From a bacterium (GTDB lineage: Bacteria; Vulcanimicrobiota; Xenobia; Xenobiales; JADMJV01): a stretch of 64,000 bases of DNA. Of this stretch, positions 9,788 to 28,233 are shown in pieces. A program made the translations under genes and the position numbers. Under the pieces are notes generated by a model. It did no database searches and was not told where the DNA came from. It saw nothing but the letters and a program-made list of their open reading frames with translations. Each line of letters begins with the position of its first letter. Position 1 is the first letter of the stretch. The stretch is taken from contig JAFEBA010000076.1 in assembly GCA_018266105.1 (NCBI GenBank), positions 265-64,264 on the forward strand, in the 5' to 3' direction.

Positions 9788-11548
9788 CTATCCATTCAGC
9801 CTTTCGGTGGCCAGGAAACAGCGCACGGCCGCACCCCGGAAATCCCAATCGCTCGCTAGCGCACGACTCAGATTGAGCATAGACCCTTCGCGCAACCGCT
9901 CGGCAAGCTCCTGGCGGCGGCGCTGAAATGAGGGGACCAACTGACTCAATCCCATCTGGGCAGCCTGCTGGCAGAGCGAGAGTGCTTCTTGCAACATTTC
10001 GGAGAGACCATCCCGGCCGCTCGACTCCAGAGCTAAGGGCCAGTCGAAGGGCTCCGCCCCCTGATAAAGGTCCAGGACCACCAACTGCTCGTTCGTCGCG
10101 ATCGCGACCGGCTCAAGCCGGGGAATGCCCCCTTCCAGCCGCACGAACCCGGTCAGCCAGACGGCCTGAGGCAATGCCCAGGCCAGGGCATCCAGGGCTC
10201 CCGGACACTCCCTCTGATGGGTCCTTCGCAGCTCAAGTTGGCCCCGGTGCAGGTCGTCAATACGGGCCACCAGGCGCTGAGACCCAGGATCATAGAAGCC
10301 CGTCTGCACTCCAGAGAGCGGAACCACCCAAAGATCCCGAGCCAGCAGAGGCGCCTCCAGCAACCGGCTGGGGCGCTCATTGCAACGCCGAGCCCAGGCT
10401 TCTCGACCAGGCCAGATCAGCGGGGCCGGCAGGTCACGCCAATCCAGTCCCAGTCGGGTGAGCGAATGTCGATTGCACTCACGCCTAAAGCGCAAACTTC
10501 CGTCCGCTCGCCGCACCAATCCGCGTGAGACCACCTGTGAGCCGGCGGCCTCAGATAGACGGCCCAAGGCCGGCACAGACTCCGAACCGGCGGGAAGGAG
10601 CTGGACCAGAACCTGCCCGGATTCGTCCGCCCAAAAAAGTTGGACGTCCTGGGCGCGGCGCCGACAGCCCAGGGCGAAAAGCCGGGAGTGCTCCAGTTCT
10701 TGCTCCCAGGCTACATCCCGACCCAACAAATAGGACGATCCGTCCCGCAAGCGCAATGCCAGGCTGAGCAAGCAATACAACCATCGGCCCGAGCTATAAT
10801 GGCTGGCCGCCTGAGCATAAGCCTGACCTAACTGAAGGATTTCCTCAACCAGGACCCGCAACCAGCTGCAGCCGAAAATCTCGGCCCGGACCCGCGATCC
10901 CCAGACTTCCCAGAGCGCGGCACTCCCGGCCACTCCCGCTTCCAGCAACTGTTCTAGCCAAAGTTCTGTCTGATCCAATGCAGTGGGCTGAGAGCTGCCC
11001 TGCCAGAGCACACGGCCGGGCTGGCCTGCCTGTTGATTGAATGCCCAGGCGGCCAGGGCCAGATGCAGACACGGGCCTTTGAGCTGACAGTCACATTTGC
11101 CATAGTCTACATCCGAGCCGAGCAAGAAGCGCACCGTGCAACCAGGCAGGCGAACCTGCCAGGGCGGACCCAAGACTTCCGCGCTGAGCCCTCGAGCCTT
11201 TTCGGCCAGGGCTTTGGTCCACAGGCGCTTGCCCAGCAGTTTCTCTACCCGCCCCATGTCGACCGCCACAAACTCTGCGGGCTGCGGCTTTGGCTCGGAC
11301 CCGGCGCATGCCAACAAGGCTCCAATCAAATGACGGCACCATCCCGCCGCTGCGCAACTGCAATGCCCTTGGGTGGCGGGCTGCGCGTCGGGAAAAAAAC
11401 AACGATTGCCGTCGGCAAAGAGGGCCCGCAGGCCGCCCTCTTCCAGCAAAAGCTCGGGCGCAGGCTCCCGCTGGGCTCGCTTGACCAGGCCCCAATTGGC
11501 CATCGCGGCCAGCGCCTCAGGGGTCAGGCCACGAAAATCTGCCCGCAT
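9788..11548 (-). CDS. SWIM zinc-finger protein (YehQ-like)
   Basis: A 586-aa cytoplasmic protein with two CxC(n)CxH zinc-binding SWIM motifs. The first is Cys63, Cys65, Cys71, His73 (HCSCAAAGWCRH); the second is Cys152, Cys154, Cys160, His162 (KCDCQLKGPCLH). The remainder is probably helical and not otherwise recognisable. SWIM domains bind DNA or protein. E. coli YehQ is the equivalent in the yeh cluster. Its ATG overlaps the VWA stop by one base (TGATG), indicating translational coupling. The substrate is unknown; a substrate-recognition role next to MoxR and VWA partners is plausible. Confidence 0.8.
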   Translation of the reverse strand: MRADFRGLTPEALAAMANWGLVKRAQREPAPELLLEEGGLRALFADGNRCFFPDAQPATQGHCSCAAAGWCRHLIGALLACAGSEPKPQPAEFVAVDMGRVEKLLGKRLWTKALAEKARGLSAEVLGPPWQVRLPGCTVRFLLGSDVDYGKCDCQLKGPCLHLALAAWAFNQQAGQPGRVLWQGSSQPTALDQTELWLEQLLEAGVAGSAALWEVWGSRVRAEIFGCSWLRVLVEEILQLGQAYAQAASHYSSGRWLYCLLSLALRLRDGSSYLLGRDVAWEQELEHSRLFALGCRRRAQDVQLFWADESGQVLVQLLPAGSESVPALGRLSEAAGSQVVSRGLVRRADGSLRFRRECNRHSLTRLGLDWRDLPAPLIWPGREAWARRCNERPSRLLEAPLLARDLWVVPLSGVQTGFYDPGSQRLVARIDDLHRGQLELRRTHQRECPGALDALAWALPQAVWLTGFVRLEGGIPRLEPVAIATNEQLVVLDLYQGAEPFDWPLALESSGRDGLSEMLQEALSLCQQAAQMGLSQLVPSFQRRRQELAERLREGSMLNLSRALASDWDFRGAAVRCFLATERLNG

Positions 11549-16434: not shown

Positions 16435-17109
16435 TCAGAGCTCAAAACGATAGCCCACCCCATAAACCGAGTAAATCACTTCTTTATCCCCCAGCTCACG
16501 AGCAATCTTCTTGCGCAAGTTCTTGATGTGGCTATCCACCACCCTGTCGGTGACGTCCTGATCCATGTCGTAAGTCAACTCCACGATCGAATCGCGCGAG
16601 TAGACCCGCCCCGGGTGGGTGAGAAACAGTTTGAGCAAACGATACTCAGTGGGAGTCAGATCCAGCCTCTGCCCCTGCACATGGATGATCTGAGCGGCTT
16701 CATCCAGACGAAAGAGAGAATCCTCCGGCCGCGGCACGGAGCGGGTGCGCCTCAACACCACCTTGACCCTTGCCACGACTTCCCGCGGACTGAAGGGTTT
16801 GCAAATGTAATCATCGGCTCCCAGCTCCAGGCCCAGCAGCCGGTCCAGCTCCTCCACCCGAGCCGTCACCAACATCACAGGCACCTCCGAATTCTTACGA
16901 ATCTCGCGGCAAATCGCGAGCCCATCCATACCGGGCAACATGACGTCCAACAAAACCAGGTCGGGCTTATAGTCTCGGAATGCTTCCAATGCCTGGCCAC
17001 CGTGAGCGACCCACCGATGCTCCATGCCGGAATGATTCAGATAATCGCCCAAAATGCGGGCCAGCGACTCTTCGTCCTCCACGACCAGAATGCGGGGTTT
17101 GTGTTCCAT
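16435..17109 (-). CDS. OmpR/PhoB-family response regulator (BaeR-like)
   Basis: DNA-binding response regulator, 224 aa. The receiver domain (1-118) has the acidic pair Glu11-Asp12, phospho-acceptor Asp55 in LLDVMLPG, Thr82 and Lys104 in CKPFSP. The C-terminal winged-helix effector domain (about 130-224) shows DLTPTEYRLLKLFL, VDSHIKNLRKKI and GVGYRF. It lies 3 bp after the kinase gene, so the two form a cognate pair. Its likely targets include this operon, but I see no tandem operator repeats that would prove autoregulation. Confidence 0.94.
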   Translation of the reverse strand: MEHKPRILVVEDEESLARILGDYLNHSGMEHRWVAHGGQALEAFRDYKPDLVLLDVMLPGMDGLAICREIRKNSEVPVMLVTARVEELDRLLGLELGADDYICKPFSPREVVARVKVVLRRTRSVPRPEDSLFRLDEAAQIIHVQGQRLDLTPTEYRLLKLFLTHPGRVYSRDSIVELTYDMDQDVTDRVVDSHIKNLRKKIARELGDKEVIYSVYGVGYRFEL

Positions 17110-17112
17110 ACT

Positions 17113-18234
17113 CTACCTCGAATAGCGGGGAATGGTGAGATCCACGCGCAGCCCTCCCAGCGAGGAATTCCCCGCCTGCAGTTGACCCTCGTGAGCCTCG
17201 GCGATGGCGCGACAGATGGAGAGTCCCAGACCGGCGCCACCCAATTTTTTACTCCGTGAGGACTCGACTCGAAAGAACCGGTCAAAGAGTTTGTCCAGCA
17301 TCTCAGGAGCCACTCCAGGAGCAGAGTCCTCAAGACGAATCGTCCAATGGCTTGCGCTCTCTCGGCAACGCAGCTCCACCTTGCCTGGAGCATCGGTGTA
17401 GCGCAGGGAGTTCTCCAACAAATTAGACAGTAACTGGCGCAGACGATCGGCGTCGCCGCGCACCAGCGCCTCCAGGCGAGAACTTTCCCGCACCACCGTT
17501 AATTCCAGTCCCGCCTTTTGGTAGCGGGACTGAAAAGGTTCGCTGACTTCCGTCAAAAGGCGCCACAAGTCCAGCTCACGCATCTTATAGTTGAGCTGAC
17601 CCAGGTCGGCCCTGGCCAACTGGAAAAGGTCTTCGGTCAGGGCGGTGAGGGCCATCACCTGACCATGAAGCAACTCAAAGGCCTCGGGGTTGGCCGGACG
17701 CACGCCGTCTTGAAGCGCCTCCACTTCAGCCCGCAAAACAGCCAGCGGGGTCCGTAACTCGTGCGAGACATCGGCGATCCACTGCTTGCGAGACTCGTTA
17801 CCTCGCTCCAGGGTGTGGGCCAGATGGTTGAACCGCTGGGCCAGCTGGCCCAGCTCATCACTCTCGCTGACGCTGATACGGGCCTTGTAATCCCCGCCGG
17901 CCAGTTTCTGGGTGCCGTGAAGCAACCTCAGGATCGGCCGCTTCAGGTGGGCGGACAGAGCGGCGGCGGTAAGCGTGCTCAGCGCCAGGGCCACCACCCC
18001 GATCAGGGTGGTGGAGCGCATCTGCTCGCTCATAAATTCCTGGGCCAGCCGGGCCTGCTGCGGGGCGGGAGCCTGGCGAGCGAGGGTCTGATAGCGTTCA
18101 AAACCCTGGCCCAAGGTCAATCGCAGCCCCGACAGCATCAACAGAACCAGCACCGCGCAGGTGAGAAACAGACTGGCGAAAATCTTGTGGCCGATGGAGA
18201 ATCTCACCTCGGGTTTTGCGCGAATCACCGGCAC
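17113..18234 (-). CDS. Sensor histidine kinase (BaeS-like)
   Basis: Membrane histidine kinase, 373 aa, starting at GTG. Two membrane helices (about 17-39 and 76-96) flank a short ~36-residue extracytoplasmic loop, too small for a classical ligand domain, so it may sense membrane or lipid state. A HAMP domain (97-150) follows. The H box holds His158 (DVSHELRTPLA), the N box Asn271 (LSNLLENSLRYT), then come LEDSAPGV (G1-like) and GGAGLGLSI (G2). All catalytic boxes look intact. It is upstream of the response regulator and 15 bp downstream of the UT-M23 fusion gene. Confidence 0.93.
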   Translation of the reverse strand: MPVIRAKPEVRFSIGHKIFASLFLTCAVLVLLMLSGLRLTLGQGFERYQTLARQAPAPQQARLAQEFMSEQMRSTTLIGVVALALSTLTAAALSAHLKRPILRLLHGTQKLAGGDYKARISVSESDELGQLAQRFNHLAHTLERGNESRKQWIADVSHELRTPLAVLRAEVEALQDGVRPANPEAFELLHGQVMALTALTEDLFQLARADLGQLNYKMRELDLWRLLTEVSEPFQSRYQKAGLELTVVRESSRLEALVRGDADRLRQLLSNLLENSLRYTDAPGKVELRCRESASHWTIRLEDSAPGVAPEMLDKLFDRFFRVESSRSKKLGGAGLGLSICRAIAEAHEGQLQAGNSSLGGLRVDLTIPRYSR

Positions 18235-18249
18235 ACGACCTGCTTCACC

Positions 18250-20256
18250 CTAGACCGCCAGGCTGAGACGCCAGCCGGGGATGCCTTGGTCTTCCTGCAG
18301 TCCCAAGCCTTCCAGCCTGGCTTCCAGACTCAGCCCGTTGGCGTGCAGCAGCCCAAACTCCACCAGGCCGAGCTGATCATCCAACAATGCCCAGCTCTCT
18401 ACCCCCCGGCCGTGCTGAGCACGCTGTTCCCATGCTCCAGCACGTCGAGAACGCACATAAGAGCTGTGGAGATTGGCGCGCCAGGGCAGGCCTCGACTGA
18501 GCAAACGGGCCGGTGGGCGGTCCCTCCACTGACAGGCCAGGGCGTGCAAAGGCGTCACCCCCAGGGCCAGCACCAATGCATCCAGCAAAGCGTCGGGCCG
18601 GGAGCAACGTTCGTAGAAAGCCACCAGCTCGGGCGTGGCCCAGAAGGCCACCCGCGCCCCCCGATCGGAAACCAACCAAAACTGACCGTCCAGATCTAAT
18701 TCCACCGTGAAGATTCGAATCTCCTGACCGACCCGAAAGCTCAGGCGTCGGCCCACGGGCAGATGCAGATGCACCTCACCTGTGCCCGGCGGGCTGCTCA
18801 CCAAATCGCCCTCTTGAGGTCGGCAGTCCAGCTGGAAAGCCGTCCCGCACAGCACGTGACTGAGATGAAAAGGCAGACTGGGTTCACCCAGTCGCGCCCC
18901 GGGCTGAACGTGAATGTGAAGATGAGGCTGTGGCGACCGGCCACTGTTACCACAGTGGCCCAGTAGCTGACCCAGCGTCACGGATTGACCGCACTGGACC
19001 TGAAGGCTACCGGCCTGCAGGTGAGCCAGCACCACCACCGGCCCGCTGGCCGATTGAATCATGACGTAGTTACCCCAACGCCGCAGAATATTGACCTCAC
19101 CGGGGTTGTTGTCGGGGCAGTCAGAAACGCAGTCGATAACCCGGCCGGCCAGGGGCGAGAGAATCTCCGCCCCATAGCAGTAGTAGTCGGTCAACTCATT
19201 GCCCTGACCGGAAAAACTCTTGCCGTTGCGCTGCTGCACAAAGTCCAGCGCGTAGCGCCACTGCTCCTTGTGGGTATGGGGGCCATCAAAGCCCTGGTAG
19301 CAACTCCACTGCCCCTTAAAGGGCAGACGAAGCGCCAGGCTGCTGGGGTCCAGGCCGCGGGCCTGGGCCAGAGAACAGCGCTCCCAGCTGCGTTCGGGCA
19401 GAGCCGGCAGAAGCAAGCGCTGAAAGCGCCAGAAGCCGCTGGCGCGTGGCCAGCAAGCCCAGAGGGCCAGCCAGGTCACCAGCACAAAGGGGATGGCCAG
19501 CGGAGGCAGACCCAATGGAGCCAGCAAACTGGTGCAGGCAAGATAGGTCAGGCTGGCAGCGGCTCCCGCCGACAATCCAAGCAGCAGACTGGCCCGTCCA
19601 GGGGAGAGCCAAAGGCCGCTGATCATCAAACAGGTGAGAATGGACTGAGTACCCGCCAATACCTGAGCGTATGAATTCCAGGGCACGCCCAACAGTCCTA
19701 AAAGAGCAAAGGAGAGTGCAAATGAAAGTCCACTCAGCAGCAACAAGTAGGGGGATCCCCAACCAATTGCCAGAGCCACCAGAGCGCCGCTGACAGGATT
19801 TGGCACCAAAAAGATCTCTCCCAGAGCGCACAAAAACGGATAGCCGTGATTGGGAGGCAGAGGCTGAAGCTCCAGCAGCAAGGACCGGGCCACCGACATC
19901 AGTCCCAGCCCCACCAGCACAAAGGGCGCACACAGTGGACGCTGCACTCGGGTCCGCAGCCAGCCGGTGACCAGCACACAGGCCGGACCCCCAGCCAGAA
20001 TCAAAAGCAGCAAGTCCCCGGAAGGCTGATAGGTGGCTCCCAGCAGGTGACCCACCAGCACTGCATTCACCAGTTCCAGGGTGGGATTGGCCGGCTCCAA
20101 GGGGAGCAACCGGCGAGCCAGAATCGCGCTCAGAGCACAGATCCAGGCCGCACAACCAGGTACGGGTTCCACCATGGTGGCCGCCACCAGCACCAGCGAG
20201 GGCAGCCAACCCGGCAGCATGAGGAAGGAGCCATAGGCCGAAAGCAGGGTCCTCAT
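18250..20256 (-). CDS. Urea transporter-like membrane domain fused to M23 metallopeptidase
   Basis: A 668-aa fusion. Residues 1-285 form about ten hydrophobic helices with urea-transporter (UT) family features: ELVNAVLVGHLLG, and two versions of the LPxxTxPF signature (RPLCAPFVL, LPPLAIPFVL). Residues 310-465 form a LytM/M23 peptidase domain with a His-x8-Asp site (His330-region and Asp338 in YALDF), His412 in LAHLQ and His445-x-His447 in PHLHIHV, so zinc binding looks complete. The last 200 residues are uncharacterised. It overlaps the decarboxylase stop by 4 bp (ATGA). The peptidase probably acts on peptidoglycan or a secreted peptide at the outer face; whether the UT part conducts urea is unknown. 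Confidence 0.8.
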   Translation of the reverse strand: MRTLLSAYGSFLMLPGWLPSLVLVAATMVEPVPGCAAWICALSAILARRLLPLEPANPTLELVNAVLVGHLLGATYQPSGDLLLLILAGGPACVLVTGWLRTRVQRPLCAPFVLVGLGLMSVARSLLLELQPLPPNHGYPFLCALGEIFLVPNPVSGALVALAIGWGSPYLLLLSGLSFALSFALLGLLGVPWNSYAQVLAGTQSILTCLMISGLWLSPGRASLLLGLSAGAAASLTYLACTSLLAPLGLPPLAIPFVLVTWLALWACWPRASGFWRFQRLLLPALPERSWERCSLAQARGLDPSSLALRLPFKGQWSCYQGFDGPHTHKEQWRYALDFVQQRNGKSFSGQGNELTDYYCYGAEILSPLAGRVIDCVSDCPDNNPGEVNILRRWGNYVMIQSASGPVVVLAHLQAGSLQVQCGQSVTLGQLLGHCGNSGRSPQPHLHIHVQPGARLGEPSLPFHLSHVLCGTAFQLDCRPQEGDLVSSPPGTGEVHLHLPVGRRLSFRVGQEIRIFTVELDLDGQFWLVSDRGARVAFWATPELVAFYERCSRPDALLDALVLALGVTPLHALACQWRDRPPARLLSRGLPWRANLHSSYVRSRRAGAWEQRAQHGRGVESWALLDDQLGLVEFGLLHANGLSLEARLEGLGLQEDQGIPGWRLSLAV

Positions 20257-21653
20257 CGAACTGCCATTTCTCTCCAGGGCTGAGCCTCGCAGTCGCGCAA
20301 ATGAGCGGGCAACTCATCCTGGGCGCACATGACCTCAAGATTTTCCGCCCTCCGAATCACGGACACATTGCCATCCTCCTGCAGCAAAATGATGGCCGGA
20401 CGATACTCGATGAATTGCATCCACTGAGTGTTATTGTAAGCTCCCACTGGACTGACCAGCAGGCGATCCCCCTGGCGCAGCGGGGCAATTTGAATGCTGC
20501 TGCGCACCACATCGATATTCATACAAAGTGGACCGTAGAGCACCGTCTCCTGGGGCGGACCCACAGGAGGGCGCGTGAGCTTAACTTGATGGTTATACCA
20601 GAAGGCGGTGAACAGCGTATTCACGCCCGCATCCAGCACTGCTGCTCGTCGCCCGTCGGGCAGGCGCTTGGTGCCGACCACGCTGGTGATCAGGTGCTGG
20701 GCGTCGTCGACCGTGGCTCGACCGGATTCAAAAATGAGCCGGGGCAGCGGCTGATTCTGGCGCACCCGGAACTCCATCCCCTGATGCAGCGCGTCCACGA
20801 TCACTCGAGCGTATTCCTCCACGGCCGGCACGGCCTGAGCCGGAGGCAGATAGACGCCCTGCAGAGCGTTCTGAGAGGGCAGTCCGCCACCAATATCAAT
20901 CGAATCGATTCGGACGATGCCGTCCTGTTCCAGCCAGGCCACAAACTCGCACATCAGGCGCATCTGCTCAGCATAGGCTCTGGGTTCCATGATAAAGGTT
21001 CCGATATGAGAGTGCAGGCCCGTCAGGCGCAGTTGCGGGCTAAGCTCGATTCGGCGCGCAGCTTCGTGCGCTTCGCCGCTTTCCAGGTTGAAGCCGAATC
21101 GACTCCAGGGTTCGCTGTAGCCGGTATTTAAATTCAGACGCAGGGTCACATCCACCACTTGCTCTTGATCGCGAGCGATCGCCTCAATGGTGGACAGTTC
21201 ATCCAGGTGGTCCACGTGCAGGTGGGCTCCTTCAGAGATGGCCCGACGTAAAATTTCTGCGCTCTTGTTGGGGCCATTGAACAGGATGCGTGAGCCGGGC
21301 ACGCCCAACTTGCGTGCCTTTTCGTATTCAAAGCGTGAGACGACCTCGGCCCAACAGCCTTCCTGATGCAGAATGCTGCAGATGGCGCTGGTGTAATTGG
21401 TCTTGTAAGACCAGCCGTGGACCACGTTGGGATAGAGCGATTGAAAGGCCTTGCGCAGGCGACGCGCGTTCTCGCGTAGTCGCTTCTCGCTGGTCACAAA
21501 CAAAGGGGAGCCATACGCAGCGACCAGTTCCTCCAGATTGTGGCCTTCCAGCTGATCTTGGTACTCGCCTCGGGGCGGACGCAGTCCGAACTTGTTCAAC
21601 GCGCCCAATTGATGGGGCGACATAAACGGTGCAATCCAGGGCTTCTTACTCAT
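20253..21653 (-). CDS. Fold-type III PLP decarboxylase (DAP/ornithine decarboxylase-like)
   Basis: PLP enzyme of the diaminopimelate/ornithine/arginine decarboxylase 2 family, 466 aa. The ATG at 21653 is preferred because GAGAGG lies 9 nt upstream. The Schiff-base Lys84 is in the WSYKTNYT motif, the glycine loop is DIGGGLPS, the HSHIGT strand motif is present, and the C-terminal GPLCMNIDVV matches the conserved active-site Cys of the family. The IFESGRATVDDA segment is LysA/NspC-like rather than strictly biosynthetic. It sits between an ATP-grasp gene (13 bp upstream) and the UT-M23 fusion, so it may tailor an amino-acid-derived small molecule instead of making lysine. Confidence 0.85.
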   Translation of the reverse strand: MSKKPWIAPFMSPHQLGALNKFGLRPPRGEYQDQLEGHNLEELVAAYGSPLFVTSEKRLRENARRLRKAFQSLYPNVVHGWSYKTNYTSAICSILHQEGCWAEVVSRFEYEKARKLGVPGSRILFNGPNKSAEILRRAISEGAHLHVDHLDELSTIEAIARDQEQVVDVTLRLNLNTGYSEPWSRFGFNLESGEAHEAARRIELSPQLRLTGLHSHIGTFIMEPRAYAEQMRLMCEFVAWLEQDGIVRIDSIDIGGGLPSQNALQGVYLPPAQAVPAVEEYARVIVDALHQGMEFRVRQNQPLPRLIFESGRATVDDAQHLITSVVGTKRLPDGRRAAVLDAGVNTLFTAFWYNHQVKLTRPPVGPPQETVLYGPLCMNIDVVRSSIQIAPLRQGDRLLVSPVGAYNNTQWMQFIEYRPAIILLQEDGNVSVIRRAENLEVMCAQDELPAHLRDCEAQPWREMAVR

Positions 21654-21666
21654 CTGGCACATCCTC

Positions 21667-22707
21667 TCAAGCGATGAGCGCGCCGCTCATCATCAGGTTC
21701 TCAAAAGCCTTCATCTCCACAATCAGCTCCTCGGCATAACGCACGAACATAACGCCGGGTCGAAGCGGGGAAAAAGTCGGTGGTGGTTCGCCCTGCAACA
21801 TCTCCAGCAGGGTTAAGGGCAGGTTGCGACCGACCCCGTGGCTCAAATAAATCCAGGCTGGAAAACGCGGATTCATTTCGATCAGATAGAGCTGGCCATC
21901 TTTGGCCCGCAGCACCTCGGCCTCAAAGGGGCCCCGCCATCCGAGGCCCTCAATCAAGGTGGCGGCCAGGCGCTCAAGTTGTTCATCCACCACACTGACT
22001 CCCGCCCAGGCCTTGCCTTTGTCGGTCAGGGCCCGCTTGCTCATCATGACCGCGCCCAGAAGGCCGTGCTCGGTGCCCAGGCCAGTCAAATTGATTTCCT
22101 GACCCTCATGAAAGCGTTGCACCAGCACCGGGTAACCCCATTGAGCCGCCAATCGATGGTAGGCTTCCTCGGCCTGATAGGCGTCGTGACAGATCACAGC
22201 ATCATAAAAGGCGCCCTTGACCACCAGCGGATAGCTCCAGGCACCTGAGCGAAAGAAGCCCGGGTCGGCCACCGTGCGCGTTTCGGGGGTATGAATCCCG
22301 ATGCGGCGACAGAGGTCAGGCAGGCGGTCTTTGTTGCGCGCCTGGAGCTGTCTGGAACCAGGCAGCATCATGCGGATCCCGCGTCGCTCCAACTCCCCTT
22401 GGATAGCGATAAAGCAGGGGAGCTCGGCATCCAGACAGGGAATCACCGCATCCAGATGCTCCCGCTCGTGGACTTCCAACAAACGCTCCAACAAAGCTTC
22501 AGATCCGGCCGCCGGATAGGGCAGCAAATAGGACGAGTCCATCCCATTGTGATACAGACCCGCATCCAGCACATCGTAGCCGAGACCCACCAATCGACCC
22601 CTGAAGCCCGAGGCCTGGCGCAGGCAGCGAGAAACCGCGTAACCGGGACCCGGATTCTCGGGACGGGCGTTCATTCCGGTAATTGCCACGTTCCAGGCGA
22701 TCTTCAT
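21667..22707 (-). CDS. ATP-grasp carboxylate-amine ligase
   Basis: A 346-aa ATP-grasp enzyme of the carbamoyl-phosphate-synthase-L/PylC-like type, which joins a carboxylate to an amine with ATP. Visible features are the PreATP-grasp N-terminus, NKDRL around Lys126, the ATP-binding Lys164 in LVVKG, and the metal-binding Glu277 and Asn279 in YLIEMNPRFPAW. The ATG overlaps the PqqD-like gene's stop by 4 bp (ATGA). Association with a PqqD-like carrier-binding domain and a PLP decarboxylase suggests peptide or amide bond formation on an unknown substrate. Confidence 0.85.
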   Translation of the reverse strand: MKIAWNVAITGMNARPENPGPGYAVSRCLRQASGFRGRLVGLGYDVLDAGLYHNGMDSSYLLPYPAAGSEALLERLLEVHEREHLDAVIPCLDAELPCFIAIQGELERRGIRMMLPGSRQLQARNKDRLPDLCRRIGIHTPETRTVADPGFFRSGAWSYPLVVKGAFYDAVICHDAYQAEEAYHRLAAQWGYPVLVQRFHEGQEINLTGLGTEHGLLGAVMMSKRALTDKGKAWAGVSVVDEQLERLAATLIEGLGWRGPFEAEVLRAKDGQLYLIEMNPRFPAWIYLSHGVGRNLPLTLLEMLQGEPPPTFSPLRPGVMFVRYAEELIVEMKAFENLMMSGALIA

Positions 22708-22976
22708 GCCAGATACCTCCCCAACTGGTGCACAAAGCTCTCCAGGCAGCTTTCAGCCTGTTCAGCATCGGTGCAATAGCTTTTGGCAAGCTCCTCGGCC
22801 ACCTGATTCATCGAAAGCCCCAGGCGCAGCATCTCAAGAGCCTCCACCGCGGTTGGATTCAGGCTGTAGCTCTGGCCGCTGCGTGGGTCAAAGAGAAAAC
22901 CGCTGTCGCTGAGGGCCAGCTGACGAAGTACATCAGCCTGACGCAGCCGATCCAGCACCTCCAGCGCGGGACGCAT
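22704..22976 (-). CDS. PqqD-like protein (RiPP recognition element fold)
   Basis: A 90-aa protein with the PqqD family pattern: FLFDPRSGQSYSLN (25-40), TAVEALEML (42-50), then a winged-helix-like tail ending in LGRYLA. PqqD-type domains bind leader peptides of ribosomally made modified peptides, or serve as accessory domains in related ligase systems. The frame is open upstream, but the ATG at 22976 shares its A with the stop of the exported protein (TGATG), which decides the start. It directly precedes the ATP-grasp gene, consistent with delivery of a substrate to it. Confidence 0.8.
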   Translation of the reverse strand: MRPALEVLDRLRQADVLRQLALSDSGFLFDPRSGQSYSLNPTAVEALEMLRLGLSMNQVAEELAKSYCTDAEQAESCLESFVHQLGRYLA

Positions 22977-23365
22977 CACGGAGCCACCGTTCCGGCGGCA
23001 TAAGAGCGCAGGCCATCCATATGATAGCCGTTGGCTCGGCACCACTTGCAGTCTTTCGTGGTACACTGGTTGCGAGCCACCTTGGTTTCCCACAGGGCTA
23101 CTTCATACTTCGCTCCCGAAAAAGAGGTCCCCAAAGGGAAGGTCTGACTCCAGCTACCCTGGCGCACAAACGTGACCTGGCTGCGGGGTGAGATGCGGTC
23201 GTTGGCGGGCGTAATTGTAATTCCTAACCAGCCGCTGTGATCGGAGTAGCCGGTCACGGTGACCGAGCTGCTGTTATCCGAACGGCCAGTGATGAACTCC
23301 TTGGTAGCGGCCCAGGCGGACACCACCAGAGCCACCGTCAACACCAGGGGAGAAAACTTCCTCAT
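22976..23365 (-). CDS. Small exported protein with C-terminal cysteine cluster
   Basis: A 129-aa protein with a clear Sec signal peptide (MRKFSP, hydrophobic 7-18, probable cleavage after Ala19 in SAWA). The mature part is rich in Ser, Thr and Gly and likely beta-stranded. It carries three cysteines near the C-terminus (Cys101, Cys106, Cys109; CTTKDCKWC) and ends in AAGTVAP. I recognise no family. The start is supported by GGAGG upstream. It is the first gene of the long minus-strand run and is coupled to the PqqD-like gene, making it a candidate substrate or structural partner of that cassette. Confidence 0.72.
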   Translation of the reverse strand: MRKFSPLVLTVALVVSAWAATKEFITGRSDNSSSVTVTGYSDHSGWLGITITPANDRISPRSQVTFVRQGSWSQTFPLGTSFSGAKYEVALWETKVARNQCTTKDCKWCRANGYHMDGLRSYAAGTVAP

Positions 23366-24657: not shown

Positions 24658-25424
24658 ATCGGCAAATTCTCACCCAGTTGCGTCAACTTCCGGGGGAGAT
24701 CGCAGCATACTACCAGGATTTGCACACCGGCCGCAGCTGGGGCTGGAATGCCGACGCTGATTTCCCCGCCGCCAGTGTGATCAAAGTGCCCATTTTGCTG
24801 GCTGTGCTGCAAGCGGCCCAACATGGACGGCTCTCGCTGGACCAAAAAATTCAGGTCGAATTCAAGCACCACGTAGGCGGAGCCGGCGTGCTTTTCGAGC
24901 TGCACGACGGAATCGAACTCACCGTTCTGGACCTGTGCAGGATGATGATTGTGGTCAGTGACAACGTGGCCTCCAATTTGTTGCTTGACCTTCTTCCTCC
25001 GGAAGCCATGGCGGAGTTCTTTGCCCAACACTCCATGCATCGCAGCCTGCTGGGCAGACGCTTCATGGAACAGGCCCGCCCCGGTCACGACAATCGCACC
25101 ACCGCCTATGACATGGGGATCTGCCTGGCAGCCCTGGCAAGGGGCGAATTGTTGGACCGGTCCCACACCAATCAGGCCCTCTCCACCATGAGGCGCCAGC
25201 AGTTCCGAGAAAAGATTCCGCTCATGCTGCCACCAGAGCTGCCCGTGGCCCATAAGACCGGTGAACTGGAAGGGGTACGCCACGATTGCGGCATCATCGA
25301 AGTACATGAGCGCCCCTATGTGCTGGTGCTGCTGACCCAAAAGGGGGGCGCCAGTTGGGACGTGGACCGAGCCCTGGCTGAGCTATCCCTGGCCGTTTAC
25401 GACTGGCACCTGGGAGACCTTTAG
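24654..25424 (+). CDS. Class A beta-lactamase-like serine hydrolase
   Basis: A 256-aa serine hydrolase of the penicillin-binding/beta-lactamase superfamily. The three active-site motifs are present: Ser41-V-I-Lys44, Ser102-Asp-Asn104 and Lys200-Thr-Gly. The omega-loop ExxLN deacylation motif is not seen; the equivalent region reads MEQARPGHDN. No signal peptide is visible at the TTG start, so it may be cytoplasmic. Both points argue against a true antibiotic-hydrolysing lactamase and for a peptidase or esterase acting on an unknown substrate. It is coupled to the PilZ gene and converges with the asparagine synthase gene, overlapping its end by 4 bp. Confidence 0.83.
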   Translation: MNRQILTQLRQLPGEIAAYYQDLHTGRSWGWNADADFPAASVIKVPILLAVLQAAQHGRLSLDQKIQVEFKHHVGGAGVLFELHDGIELTVLDLCRMMIVVSDNVASNLLLDLLPPEAMAEFFAQHSMHRSLLGRRFMEQARPGHDNRTTAYDMGICLAALARGELLDRSHTNQALSTMRRQQFREKIPLMLPPELPVAHKTGELEGVRHDCGIIEVHERPYVLVLLTQKGGASWDVDRALAELSLAVYDWHLGDL

Positions 25425-27385
25425 GCGGAGACGGGAGGGCTGGTGAAGCCTTCCCCCTGCAGAAACAGCCGACGCCACTCCAGGACGGATAGAATTCGCC
25501 ACAATTCCCAACTGTGGTCCTTACCGGCCTGATGTTCGTTAAAGAGTTTATCCAGGCGGTCCACTTGAAACCATTCGCGAGCAGCCTGGCTATGCAACTG
25601 GTCGGCCACCCACTCTTTCAGTGGACCGCGATACCAATGCACGGCCGGGGTCGGGTAGCCTTTCTTGTCTCTGCGCAAAATAATCTCGGGCGGAGCCAGG
25701 CCCGCCACGGCCGTGCGCAGCACGCGCTTGGTCCAGCCGGCGTGAATCTTGTAGACCCCAGGCAAGGCGAAGGCGAACTCGACCAGACGGTAGTCCAGAA
25801 ACGGGGTCCGGGCCTCGATGGAAAAGGCCATGCTGTTCCGATCTTCATAGCGCAACAACTGTGGAATGGACAGGTGAGTCAGATCCTGAGCCAGGCGACG
25901 GGAAAGCCGGTCCGGCCAGAGCCGGGCGGCGGTGCGGCTCCGGTCTACTCCCATCATTCCCTGACGGAGGCTCTCTTGCAGATAGACCGGAGGTTTCCAC
26001 GGGTCCGGCTTGAGCTTTTCCGCCTTGCGCAAAAAGCCGGGCAGACGGGCCTGCCAGCGAGCTTTGGAAGCCACTTTAGCCAAAGAACGACCGGCCAACT
26101 CCTCGCAAAGAGCCAGTTCCGAACCCTCCTGACCCTGCCAGGCCAGGTCCCAAACATGATCTTCCAGGTAGGGTAGGTAGCCGGCAAAAACCTCGTCGCC
26201 GCCCTGACCGTCCAGGAGCACCTTCACCTGGTTGTGAGCCGATTGCATGACTTTCCACTGCGTGAACAAGGTGGCACTGCCGGAAGGCTCGTCTTGAGCC
26301 CAGCATATCTTTGCCATGGCCCCGACCAGCTCTTCGGGGCGCGGGATGACTCGCGTGGCGTCCGTTTTGCAGCCTTCCACTACGCTACGAATAAACTGAG
26401 ACTCGCTGCAGTCCGCTTCCTCGTATTCACTGGAGAAAGTTCGAATGGGCTTGTCATTCAAGGCTGAGGCGATAGAGACAATGGAGCTACTGTCCATTCC
26501 ACCGGAGAGACAGGTTCCGACCGGCACATCTGAACGCAAGCGCAATCGCACCGCATCCTGAAGCAAAGCCCTCAACGCCTCGGCTGCGGTGTAAAACGAA
26601 ACATCCGGATGGGACGGAAGCGCCGGCTGAGCAAAGTCCAAAGCAGGCACAGGCGGGGCACCCTGCAGGCGCACCGAGGCCAGCTCCAGGGCTGCTTCAA
26701 AATTGTGGCCCGGCGCCAGACTCCAGTAGGATTGGATGGTCAAACCGGCTTGTGCTGAAATCCAGAGATGGTGGGCCGGGGGTAGAGGTTTGACGCCTTC
26801 GAAAAAGGTCTCTTGCTCATCATCACAGATGCTTTCTACCAGGAAACGCCCCAGGGCTCGAGGATTGGGACGGCGCAAGCCAGCATCATCACCCAGCAGA
26901 GCTTTGGGCTCGGAAGCGAAGCGAAATTCACCGGCCACTTCGGCGTAGTAGAAAGGCTTCACCCCGAAACGGTCACGAGCGCACCAGAGCTGGCTTTTCT
27001 GCTCGTCCCAGAGAGCGAAAGCCCACATCCCATTGAAATGGCTCAGACAGTCACGACCCCACTGCAGATAGGCCCGCACCAGCACCTCGCTGTCACTCTC
27101 AGTGCGAAACTGATGTCCCAGGCCTTCGAGCACGGTCCGAATTTCCAGATAGTTGTAGATCTCACCGTTGTAGATCAGCAGGCAATGTTCGACACGCATC
27201 GGTTGTTCCGAACGCGGGTCAAGATCGATAATGGACAAGCGGCGGTGAACCAGGCCCAGACCCGCCTGATTATAGATGCCCTGGGCGTCGGGCCCGCGAT
27301 GAGCCAGCAGTTGGCCCATCCGCTCCAGGCGTGAAGGCTCAATGGACCGTCCTTGCAGGTGGAAAACTCCAGCAATGCCGCACAT
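25421..27385 (-). CDS. asnB: Glutamine-hydrolysing asparagine synthase (AsnB-type), copy 1
   Basis: Makes asparagine, or a related amide, from aspartate with glutamine and ATP. The 654-aa protein starts MCGIAGVF, so the nucleophilic Cys2 of the Ntn glutaminase is intact; RGPDAQG, YNGEIYNY and RDRFGVKPFYY follow. The synthetase domain has the PP-loop SGGMDSSSI and the GGDEVFAGY motif. It is full length for cluster-forming AsnB proteins, with a longer linker around 230-260. A second copy is at 36382. Its place near a PhyH-like oxygenase leaves open an amide-forming role in a natural-product or capsule pathway rather than housekeeping. Confidence 0.92.
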   Translation of the reverse strand: MCGIAGVFHLQGRSIEPSRLERMGQLLAHRGPDAQGIYNQAGLGLVHRRLSIIDLDPRSEQPMRVEHCLLIYNGEIYNYLEIRTVLEGLGHQFRTESDSEVLVRAYLQWGRDCLSHFNGMWAFALWDEQKSQLWCARDRFGVKPFYYAEVAGEFRFASEPKALLGDDAGLRRPNPRALGRFLVESICDDEQETFFEGVKPLPPAHHLWISAQAGLTIQSYWSLAPGHNFEAALELASVRLQGAPPVPALDFAQPALPSHPDVSFYTAAEALRALLQDAVRLRLRSDVPVGTCLSGGMDSSSIVSIASALNDKPIRTFSSEYEEADCSESQFIRSVVEGCKTDATRVIPRPEELVGAMAKICWAQDEPSGSATLFTQWKVMQSAHNQVKVLLDGQGGDEVFAGYLPYLEDHVWDLAWQGQEGSELALCEELAGRSLAKVASKARWQARLPGFLRKAEKLKPDPWKPPVYLQESLRQGMMGVDRSRTAARLWPDRLSRRLAQDLTHLSIPQLLRYEDRNSMAFSIEARTPFLDYRLVEFAFALPGVYKIHAGWTKRVLRTAVAGLAPPEIILRRDKKGYPTPAVHWYRGPLKEWVADQLHSQAAREWFQVDRLDKLFNEHQAGKDHSWELWRILSVLEWRRLFLQGEGFTSPPVSA

Positions 27386-27468: not shown

Positions 27469-28233
27469 GTGGTGTTGAACTCCCGTGAGCGAGAAGGGCT
27501 CTATCAAGGCCAATTTTTGGTGGGTAGAGCCACTTCCAATGGGCTGGCTGAAGCGGTCTGGACCTGCCTGCGCGAAGAATTTGGAGAGCAACCGCGCGAC
27601 TTCCAGGGCCCCGACTTCCTGAGCCGCCTCAATCGCGCCCGCCAGCGACTCTGCGGCGCCGAATGGCGCGATCAATGCCGTCGTTTTTTATTGGAACAAG
27701 GGCTCGAACTGGACCATTTCCTGCTCGACCGATTCCGACTGCGAGGGGTAGCCCCGGGTGCCGATGCCATCCCGGCTGCGGTCGCTGCTTTTTATGCCCA
27801 CCGCGACTGCTGGTATGCCAATCCTCAAGCCCAGATCAATCTCTGGCTGCCGCTGCACGATGTGGACGGGTCCTGCAGTTTTGGATTCTATCCAGAGTAC
27901 TTCCAGCATCCCGTGGAGAACGACTCGGAGCGCTTTGACTACGGTCAATTCCTGAGCGACGGCGGATTCCAAAGCACCACTCAGAGCCTGGTCCATCCCC
28001 GCTGGCTGGCCAACCAGCAACCCGAGCCCCCCTACCCGGTGGTGCTCAAGCGAGGGGAATTTCTGCTCTTCGCCGCCTCGCATCTGCATCGCACCCTGCC
28101 CAATCGTTGCGGACGCATTCGCTTCAGCCTGGACATGCGATTGGTCCATCGTGAGGATCACCTCTGTCATCGCGGAGCCCCCAACTGTGACAACCGCTCT
28201 CGCGGAGATGCCGCAGTGGACTACGCCTGGTAA
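27469..28233 (+). CDS. PhyH-like Fe(II)/2-oxoglutarate dioxygenase, putative
   Basis: A 254-aa protein resembling phytanoyl-CoA dioxygenase-like oxygenases. The core shows an HxD-like pair (AHRDCW, about residues 109-114), a jelly-roll strand NLWLPLHDVDGS, and a distal His with a following Arg (HLHRTLPN, GRIRFSLDMR) for iron and 2-oxoglutarate. Together these give the 2-His-1-carboxylate facial triad. The start is GTG without a clear ribosome site. It is divergent from asparagine synthase across 83 bp and converges with the papain-like gene. The substrate is unknown. Confidence 0.7.
   Translation: MVLNSREREGLYQGQFLVGRATSNGLAEAVWTCLREEFGEQPRDFQGPDFLSRLNRARQRLCGAEWRDQCRRFLLEQGLELDHFLLDRFRLRGVAPGADAIPAAVAAFYAHRDCWYANPQAQINLWLPLHDVDGSCSFGFYPEYFQHPVENDSERFDYGQFLSDGGFQSTTQSLVHPRWLANQQPEPPYPVVLKRGEFLLFAASHLHRTLPNRCGRIRFSLDMRLVHREDHLCHRGAPNCDNRSRGDAAVDYAW

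Follow-up and report, generated by a model that had tools for sequence, protein, structure and literature searches.

A conserved ligase–decarboxylase cassette with a lasso-type recognition element and a leader-like enzyme tail: a putative enzyme-docking system

Introduction

Lasso-type recognition elements (RREs) of ribosomally synthesized and post-translationally modified peptides (RiPPs) bind leader peptides at the motif [Y/W]xxPx[L/V/I/F/A]. In LppB, the proline kink is fixed by Asn33, Asp70 hydrogen-bonds the leader tyrosine and Phe74 lines the pockets, while paeninodin-type RREs that read tryptophan carry Gly and Gln at the first two of these three positions (PMC13381572). A branch of the alanine-racemase-fold decarboxylases, comprising FigC (N-citrylornithine), SbnH, AcsE, MccE (microcin C) and BtrK (glutamyl carrier), acts on tethered or acylated amino acids (PMC7857480). 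Here we study a gene cassette in which both kinds of protein occur side by side. It is located in a 64,000-nt stretch of contig JAFEBA010000076.1 (assembly GCA_018266105.1, Xenobiales, host genome size 8.4 Mb), referred to as the window, and is composed of a PqqD-like RRE, an ATP-grasp ligase, a decarboxylase dependent on pyridoxal phosphate (PLP), and a fusion of a urea-transporter (UT) domain with an M23 peptidase (UT-M23). Judged from the sequences, we consider it probable (roughly 0.6) that this is a biosynthesis-and-transport cassette, in which the RRE binds an N-terminal tail of the decarboxylase and thereby holds this enzyme beside the ligase.

The lasso/LPP RRE–leader pairs (TbiB1, TfuB1/FusB1, PbaB1, LppB) are alike in RRE family, in the ligand [Y/W]xxPx[hydrophobic] and in the Asn/Asp/Phe contacts (PMC13381572). 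In our cassette, however, a full-length enzyme carries the predicted ligand at its N-terminus, and precursor peptide, cyclase, leader peptidase and kinase are missing; neither a B2 leader peptidase nor an asparagine-synthetase-like cyclase occurs among the conserved cassette neighbours. Butirosin BtrI/BtrJ/BtrK likewise combine a small protein, an ATP-grasp ligase and an alanine-racemase-fold decarboxylase working on a tethered amino acid (PMC7857480), but here the small protein is an RRE instead of an acyl carrier, the decarboxylase is tailed, and a transporter-peptidase is linked. FigC/FslC, the nearest characterised decarboxylase, shares the Met beside the catalytic Cys as well as Thr and Tyr of the specificity helix, whereas in our case the presumed citrate contacts are missing, an ATP-grasp enzyme replaces the NIS (nonribosomal-peptide-synthetase-independent siderophore) synthetase, and a leader-like tail is present. 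In microcin C, MccE is an alanine-racemase-fold decarboxylase acting on a group attached to the peptide product (PMC7857480), but no heptapeptide precursor or nucleotidyltransferase was seen in the cassette. PylC and the L-amino acid ligases are fold neighbours of the ligase model at a low identity of 18%. Altogether, the cassette resembles both an RRE-guided pathway and BtrI/J/K, yet no precursor peptide was found and carrier features are absent, so that it lacks those defining features of either that were tested. Our literature search found no paper describing the gene combination.

Results and Discussion

Composition and Conservation of the Cassette

The elements of the cassette are located in the window as follows.

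22704..22976, minus strand: PqqD-like protein, 90 aa, lasso-type RRE (PF05402, E=7e-10; profile nearest to TbiB1/TfuB1)
22857-22859, 22746-22748 and 22734-22736, minus strand: RRE key residues N40, C77 and F81, onto which N33, D70 and F74 of LppB map
21667..22707, minus strand: ATP-grasp ligase, 346 aa (invariant active-site residues; the predicted fold resembles 2pn1, L-amino acid ligases and PylC)
20253..21662, minus strand: alanine-racemase-fold PLP decarboxylase, 469 aa as called (PF02784/PF00278; best solved relative FigC, 7kh2, E=3e-53)
21555..21662, minus strand: leader-like N-terminal tail of the decarboxylase, residues 1-36
21621..21638, minus strand: predicted RRE-binding motif WIAPFM, W9-M14 of the decarboxylase (matches the published motif except for Met at the last position)
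21585..21596, minus strand: NKFG, decarboxylase residues 23-26 (from the tail alignment)
18250..20256, minus strand: UT-M23, fusion of PF03253 and PF01551, constant fourth core gene
22976..23365, minus strand: exported protein, predicted beta-sandwich, a companion within the phylum and not a core gene

Genome contigs were scanned with the ATP-grasp protein, which yielded 127 relatives, 80 of which were kept; the locus sample is therefore drawn by the ligase. In nearly all loci of sufficient length, the genes for the PqqD-like protein, the ATP-grasp ligase, the decarboxylase and UT-M23 follow each other in that order. The order is identical across about eight phyla, with cassettes in Eremiobacterota, Bacteroidota, Ignavibacteria, Pseudomonadota (Magnetococcales, Caenispirillum), Spirochaetota, Cloacimonadota, Riflebacteria and Melainabacteria, where organism names are record titles, some of those of metagenome-assembled genomes are probably misbinned, and some gene starts are uncertain. 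By ligase search, 36 of 149 Bacteroidia genomes (about a quarter), 34 of 395 in a draw from the phylum of the Bacteroidia, and 9 of 296 in the phylum of a Leptospirales relative are positive.

An independent search of 58 related genomes located close relatives of the ligase and of the decarboxylase in exactly the same ten. UT-M23 was found in nine of these and at comparable score in no other of the 58; in the tenth (G016), the contig ends inside the decarboxylase. RRE, ligase, decarboxylase and UT-M23 occur together far more often than expected by chance.

The first-pass annotation had described four tightly coupled genes, namely those of the exported protein, the PqqD-like protein, the ATP-grasp enzyme and the decarboxylase. 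All four open reading frames (ORFs) are present on the minus strand, and the families of the latter three are borne out by family models or fold (decarboxylase, Orn/DAP/Arg decarboxylase PF02784, E=4e-31, with DAP denoting diaminopimelate; ligase, PRK12767-type models, E=9e-20, plus the predicted fold). As a unit, the proposal stands for RRE, ligase and decarboxylase, which are constant, the latter two as a conserved pair, but it overlooked UT-M23 and included the exported protein, which is not constant. The co-occurrence check that it suggested gave the same division.

The exported protein adjoins 8 of the 10 cassettes of its phylum in the 58-genome set and occurs twice in one genome without the cassette. 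It is not recognisable elsewhere, and relatives outside the phylum carry other genes at that place. No Pfam or NCBIfam family matches it, and its model (pLDDT 87) has no confident PDB match, with weak matches to fibronectin type III- or immunoglobulin-like folds only. It is an accessory companion within the phylum. As an RRE substrate, the role initially considered for it, it was rejected: the leader motif occurs in 0 of 7 of these proteins, most cassettes outside the phylum lack the protein, and the expected ligand is found on the N-terminus of the decarboxylase.

A Leader-Like Tail on the Decarboxylase

In the decarboxylase, homology to FigC, LysA and others begins at approximately residue 37 and is preceded by the tail (a second ATG lies at residue 4). 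Each of the 81 cassette decarboxylases whose N-terminus is readable carries the motif [Y/W/F]xxPx[I/L/M/V] followed by NKFG or a variant, e.g., PWIAPFM...LNKFG in the window and TYERPVI...LNKFG in Petrimonas. The distance from the aromatic residue to Asn is fixed at 14 residues (80 of 80 located cases, first sample). Shuffled versions of the same tails show the motif in 6.5%, and among 14 readable alanine-racemase-fold control decarboxylases from related genomes, it is absent. A tail-profile search of 10 genomes gave one significant place in each, the cassette decarboxylase, and the same search in 149 genomes of the window's phylum returned exactly the ten known cassette holders.

Judged by sequence, the other cassette proteins are poor candidates for the RRE ligand. 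The PqqD-like protein itself shows the motif in 1 of 81 cases, and in the ATP-grasp enzyme and UT-M23 its occurrences appear, as read from the sequences, to lie inside folded or membrane regions. Within NKFG, Lys is replaced by T, P, A or G in L027, L100, L101 and L102, while Asn varies in L024 and in the clade with Phe in the motif; the Phe-type cassettes L174, L180, L186, L196 and L197 have S, A or D in its place. The latter half of the tail may likewise co-vary with some partner.

Covariation of Recognition Element and Tail

The nearest solved structures to the PqqD-like family are the discrete lasso RREs TbiB1 and TfuB1, and the leader-contact residues are conserved. Thus, the earlier assignment to the leader-binding type is supported. 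A HMMER alignment places LppB chain residues 51, 88 and 92 on window positions 40, 77 and 81, and by a constant offset of 18 these should correspond to N33, D70 and F74.

In the first sample, position 77 is Asp in 67 of 67 cassettes with Tyr in the tail motif, and Cys, Ser or Ala in 7 of 8 with Trp. This pairing was seen on the first sample and then checked on new genomes, where it held. The combined set comprises 120 RRE/tail pairs, in which the leader-contact Asn (N40 in the window) and the motif Pro are both present without exception, and F81 in 105. Motif Tyr is accompanied by RRE Asp in 108 of 108 pairs and Phe, which has no hydroxyl for the hydrogen bond, by Tyr or His in 5 of 5, while Trp goes with a residue other than Asp in six pairs and with Asp in one. 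The window has C77 together with a Trp motif. If L025 (Trp-Ser) and L026 (Trp-Asp) are added, 12 of 14 non-Tyr cassettes are without Asp (Fisher p=7e-15, a value that ignores relatedness and so cannot be read as a true probability). The ligase tree shows three losses of Tyr and two of Asp, and both Asp losses fall within clades that lack Tyr. A basal Trp cassette (Caenispirillum) retains Asp, as expected if the tail changed first. Owing to the tail motif, the conserved leader-gripping Asn and the Tyr-Asp pairing, the RRE most likely grips the decarboxylase tail and not the exported protein.

We also considered membership in the HPr-rel-A system (TIGR04353), whose PqqD model the window protein passes (39.2, cut-off 35). 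It was rejected, as the window contig carries no HprK-related gene and the genome as a whole none that exceeds the cut-off; a Petrimonas PqqD relative scores 24.3 on the same model. Other PqqD-family genes of the host, at G000:C92 (L221, L224) and G000:C136 (L222, L223, L225), lie 1-8 kb from HPr-kinase-related matches below the family cut-off and may represent separate HPr-rel-A-like systems.

Enzyme Chemistry and Envelope Part

Schiff-base Lys, His, GGG, ExGR and the catalytic Cys of the decarboxylase are invariant or nearly so in 73 relatives. The ligase has an ATP-grasp fold with nucleotide- and Mg-binding residues present. Since the active-site residues are invariant, both enzymes are probably live. 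Met after the catalytic Cys (M381) and the specificity-helix residues T352 and Y356 are common to the window enzyme and FigC; Thr352 and Met381 stand in place of the Arg and the acidic residue of DAP decarboxylase. FigC's presumed citrate contacts His357 and Arg387 are replaced by Ile383 and Gln413, and this FigC-like pocket without citrate contacts points to a larger and neutral substrate. A role in a citrate siderophore was rejected for the missing contacts, and one in lysine biosynthesis is disfavoured by a separate host lysA and the replaced DAP-recognition residues, in line with the first-pass expectation. Structures with a fold similar to the ligase model include both amide ligases and carboxylases. 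PylC builds an isopeptide on the side chain of a lysine.

In UT-M23, H329, D338, H412, H445 and H447 are invariant in 62 relatives. The usual zinc-site His of M23 domains, four residues before Asp, is not conserved, and H329 may replace it. The UT domain keeps conserved Asn/Pro/Phe positions; passage of a small neutral product through it would fit.

A Docking Reading and Its Alternatives

Conservation of the cassette, intact active sites, the tail motif and RRE/tail covariation are the parts of our reading that sequence supports, while chemistry and product are inferred. In this scheme, the RRE would bind the leader-like tail and dock the decarboxylase near the ATP-grasp ligase. The ligase would join an amino acid via its side chain, or to an acyl partner, such that alpha-amine and alpha-carboxyl stay free, and the docked decarboxylase would then remove the carboxyl group in the manner of BtrK, FigC and MccE, whose substrates are tethered or acylated amino acids. 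This order of steps is proposed because the ligase model resembles PylC and L-amino acid ligases and the decarboxylase branch takes such substrates; with these precedents, the idea of the first-pass annotation that a ligated amino acid is decarboxylated remains plausible by analogy. A small neutral product may cross the inner membrane via the UT domain, and the M23 domain, in Bacteroidota together with a protein of tetratricopeptide repeats (TPR) and a beta-barrel, may act in the envelope. The exported protein would be an accessory.

Several points weigh against docking. Asp was lost in just two independent events, two Trp cassettes retain it, and an NCBIfam scan of the tail gave no lasso-leader model match, for which reason its identity as a leader rests on motif, spacing and covariation. 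Moreover, RREs normally bring substrates, not partner enzymes. The decarboxylase could therefore itself be the modified substrate, with the RRE presenting the tail to the ATP-grasp enzyme, which would attach something in or close to NKFG; borosins, with their precursor fused to an enzyme, offer a rough parallel. Indeed, the tail resembles a full leader with a motif and a conserved downstream NKFG, and the tail profile found no other leader-bearing protein; but neither Lys nor Asn of NKFG is constant, and with its intact active site the enzyme is no dead scaffold, so that we regard this as unlikely. A RiPP pathway with an unlinked precursor, whose RRE the decarboxylase tail merely shares, appears quite unlikely. 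The RRE is of the lasso type, precursors can sit elsewhere, and leaders that share just YxxPx[I/L] would escape the tail profile. However, cassette gaps and upstream regions contain no conserved small ORF, the profile finds no second copy, and it is the decarboxylase tail with which the Tyr-Asp pairing is perfect. That no standard RiPP pathway is present had already been noted, and the search for a precursor peptide near the cassette agrees.

The remaining alternatives concern the decarboxylase and the small protein. In a polycarboxylate-type, rhizoferrin-like metallophore pathway, the ligase would make an acyl-amino acid on which the decarboxylase acts as FigC does. FslC/FigC is the best-matching decarboxylase model and the Met after the catalytic Cys is shared, but the window enzyme reaches 217.6 bits against a cut-off of 500, the citrate contacts are replaced, and no NIS synthetase or siderophore receptor was seen in the cassette, which makes such a pathway improbable. 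Still more doubtful is a carrier pathway of the BtrI/J/K kind, with the PqqD-like protein as a covalent carrier loaded by the ligase with an amino acid for decarboxylation: the same trio is present and BtrK is also a solved relative, yet the PqqD-like C-terminus is not conserved, its invariant residues include no carrier-type attachment site, and the conserved ones are those of leader binding. An ordinary DAP decarboxylase beside unrelated genes, finally, would explain why lysA is the second-best NCBIfam model (215 bits), but this score is below the cut-off of 297.9, which another host gene passes with 308 bits; together with the altered DAP-recognition residues and the strict cassette linkage, this leaves hardly any room for such an assignment.

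Genomic Neighbourhood

Two further genes follow in the window.

17113..18234, minus strand: histidine kinase, 15 nt downstream of UT-M23 (family search)
16435..17109, minus strand: OmpR-type response regulator, 3 nt downstream of the kinase (family search)

All seven genes are on the minus strand, in the transcription order exported protein, PqqD-like protein, ATP-grasp ligase, decarboxylase, UT-M23, histidine kinase and response regulator. The first four are joined by overlaps of 1 and 4 nt or a 4-nt gap, and UT-M23 overlaps the decarboxylase by 4 nt. The spacing throughout (overlaps of 1-4 nt, gaps of 3-15 nt) is as in an operon. A scan for promoters and terminators gave hits at chance level only. 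The histidine kinase, which also follows UT-M23 in L021, L022 and L025, is possibly the regulator of the operon.

In Bacteroidota, two extra genes usually follow the cassette, coding for a TPR protein with an apparent beta-barrel (43 loci) and a secreted TPR protein (46 loci). Upstream of the cassette (L045, L066, L067, L071, L076, L096 and L098), Bacteroidales have DUF2202 proteins or else an ECF sigma factor accompanied by small proteins of the membrane or exported type, and other Bacteroidota a LytTR/histidine-kinase pair, whereas the kinase/regulator pair of the window is downstream. Signal control of the envelope seems to be a common theme of these neighbourhoods. The Magnetococcales cassette L024 has an extra gene, acetyltransferase-like by eye, between decarboxylase and UT-M23 (10466-10984, plus strand).

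In the cassette trees, the closest companions of the window cassette are those of Magnetococcales, Obscuribacterales and Caenispirillum, not those of other classes of its own phylum, which suggests horizontal transfer. A search for plasmid relatives gave one distant Streptomyces match only. Elsewhere in the window, as judged by eye, an asparagine-synthetase-like protein (25421-27385, minus strand) diverges from an ORF that reads as a phytanoyl-CoA dioxygenase-type oxygenase (27469-28233, plus strand), possibly another small biosynthetic pair.

Implications

For lasso-type RREs that occur without lasso machinery, the authors of RRE-Finder named false positives and unknown classes as possibilities (PMC7470986). 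For some of these, our cassette gives another reading. There is, in our estimation, about an even chance that RRE and leader-like tag form an enzyme-docking module, linking ATP-grasp ligase and PLP decarboxylase within a non-RiPP pathway spread over about eight phyla and making and moving an undescribed decarboxylated amide. If so, some PqqD-like genes counted in genome mining as precursor-less RiPP clusters or as false positives may dock enzymes. This would be a second job for RREs, would provide a tag for coupling enzymes, and would open the way to a metabolite system that about a quarter of the sampled Bacteroidia possess.

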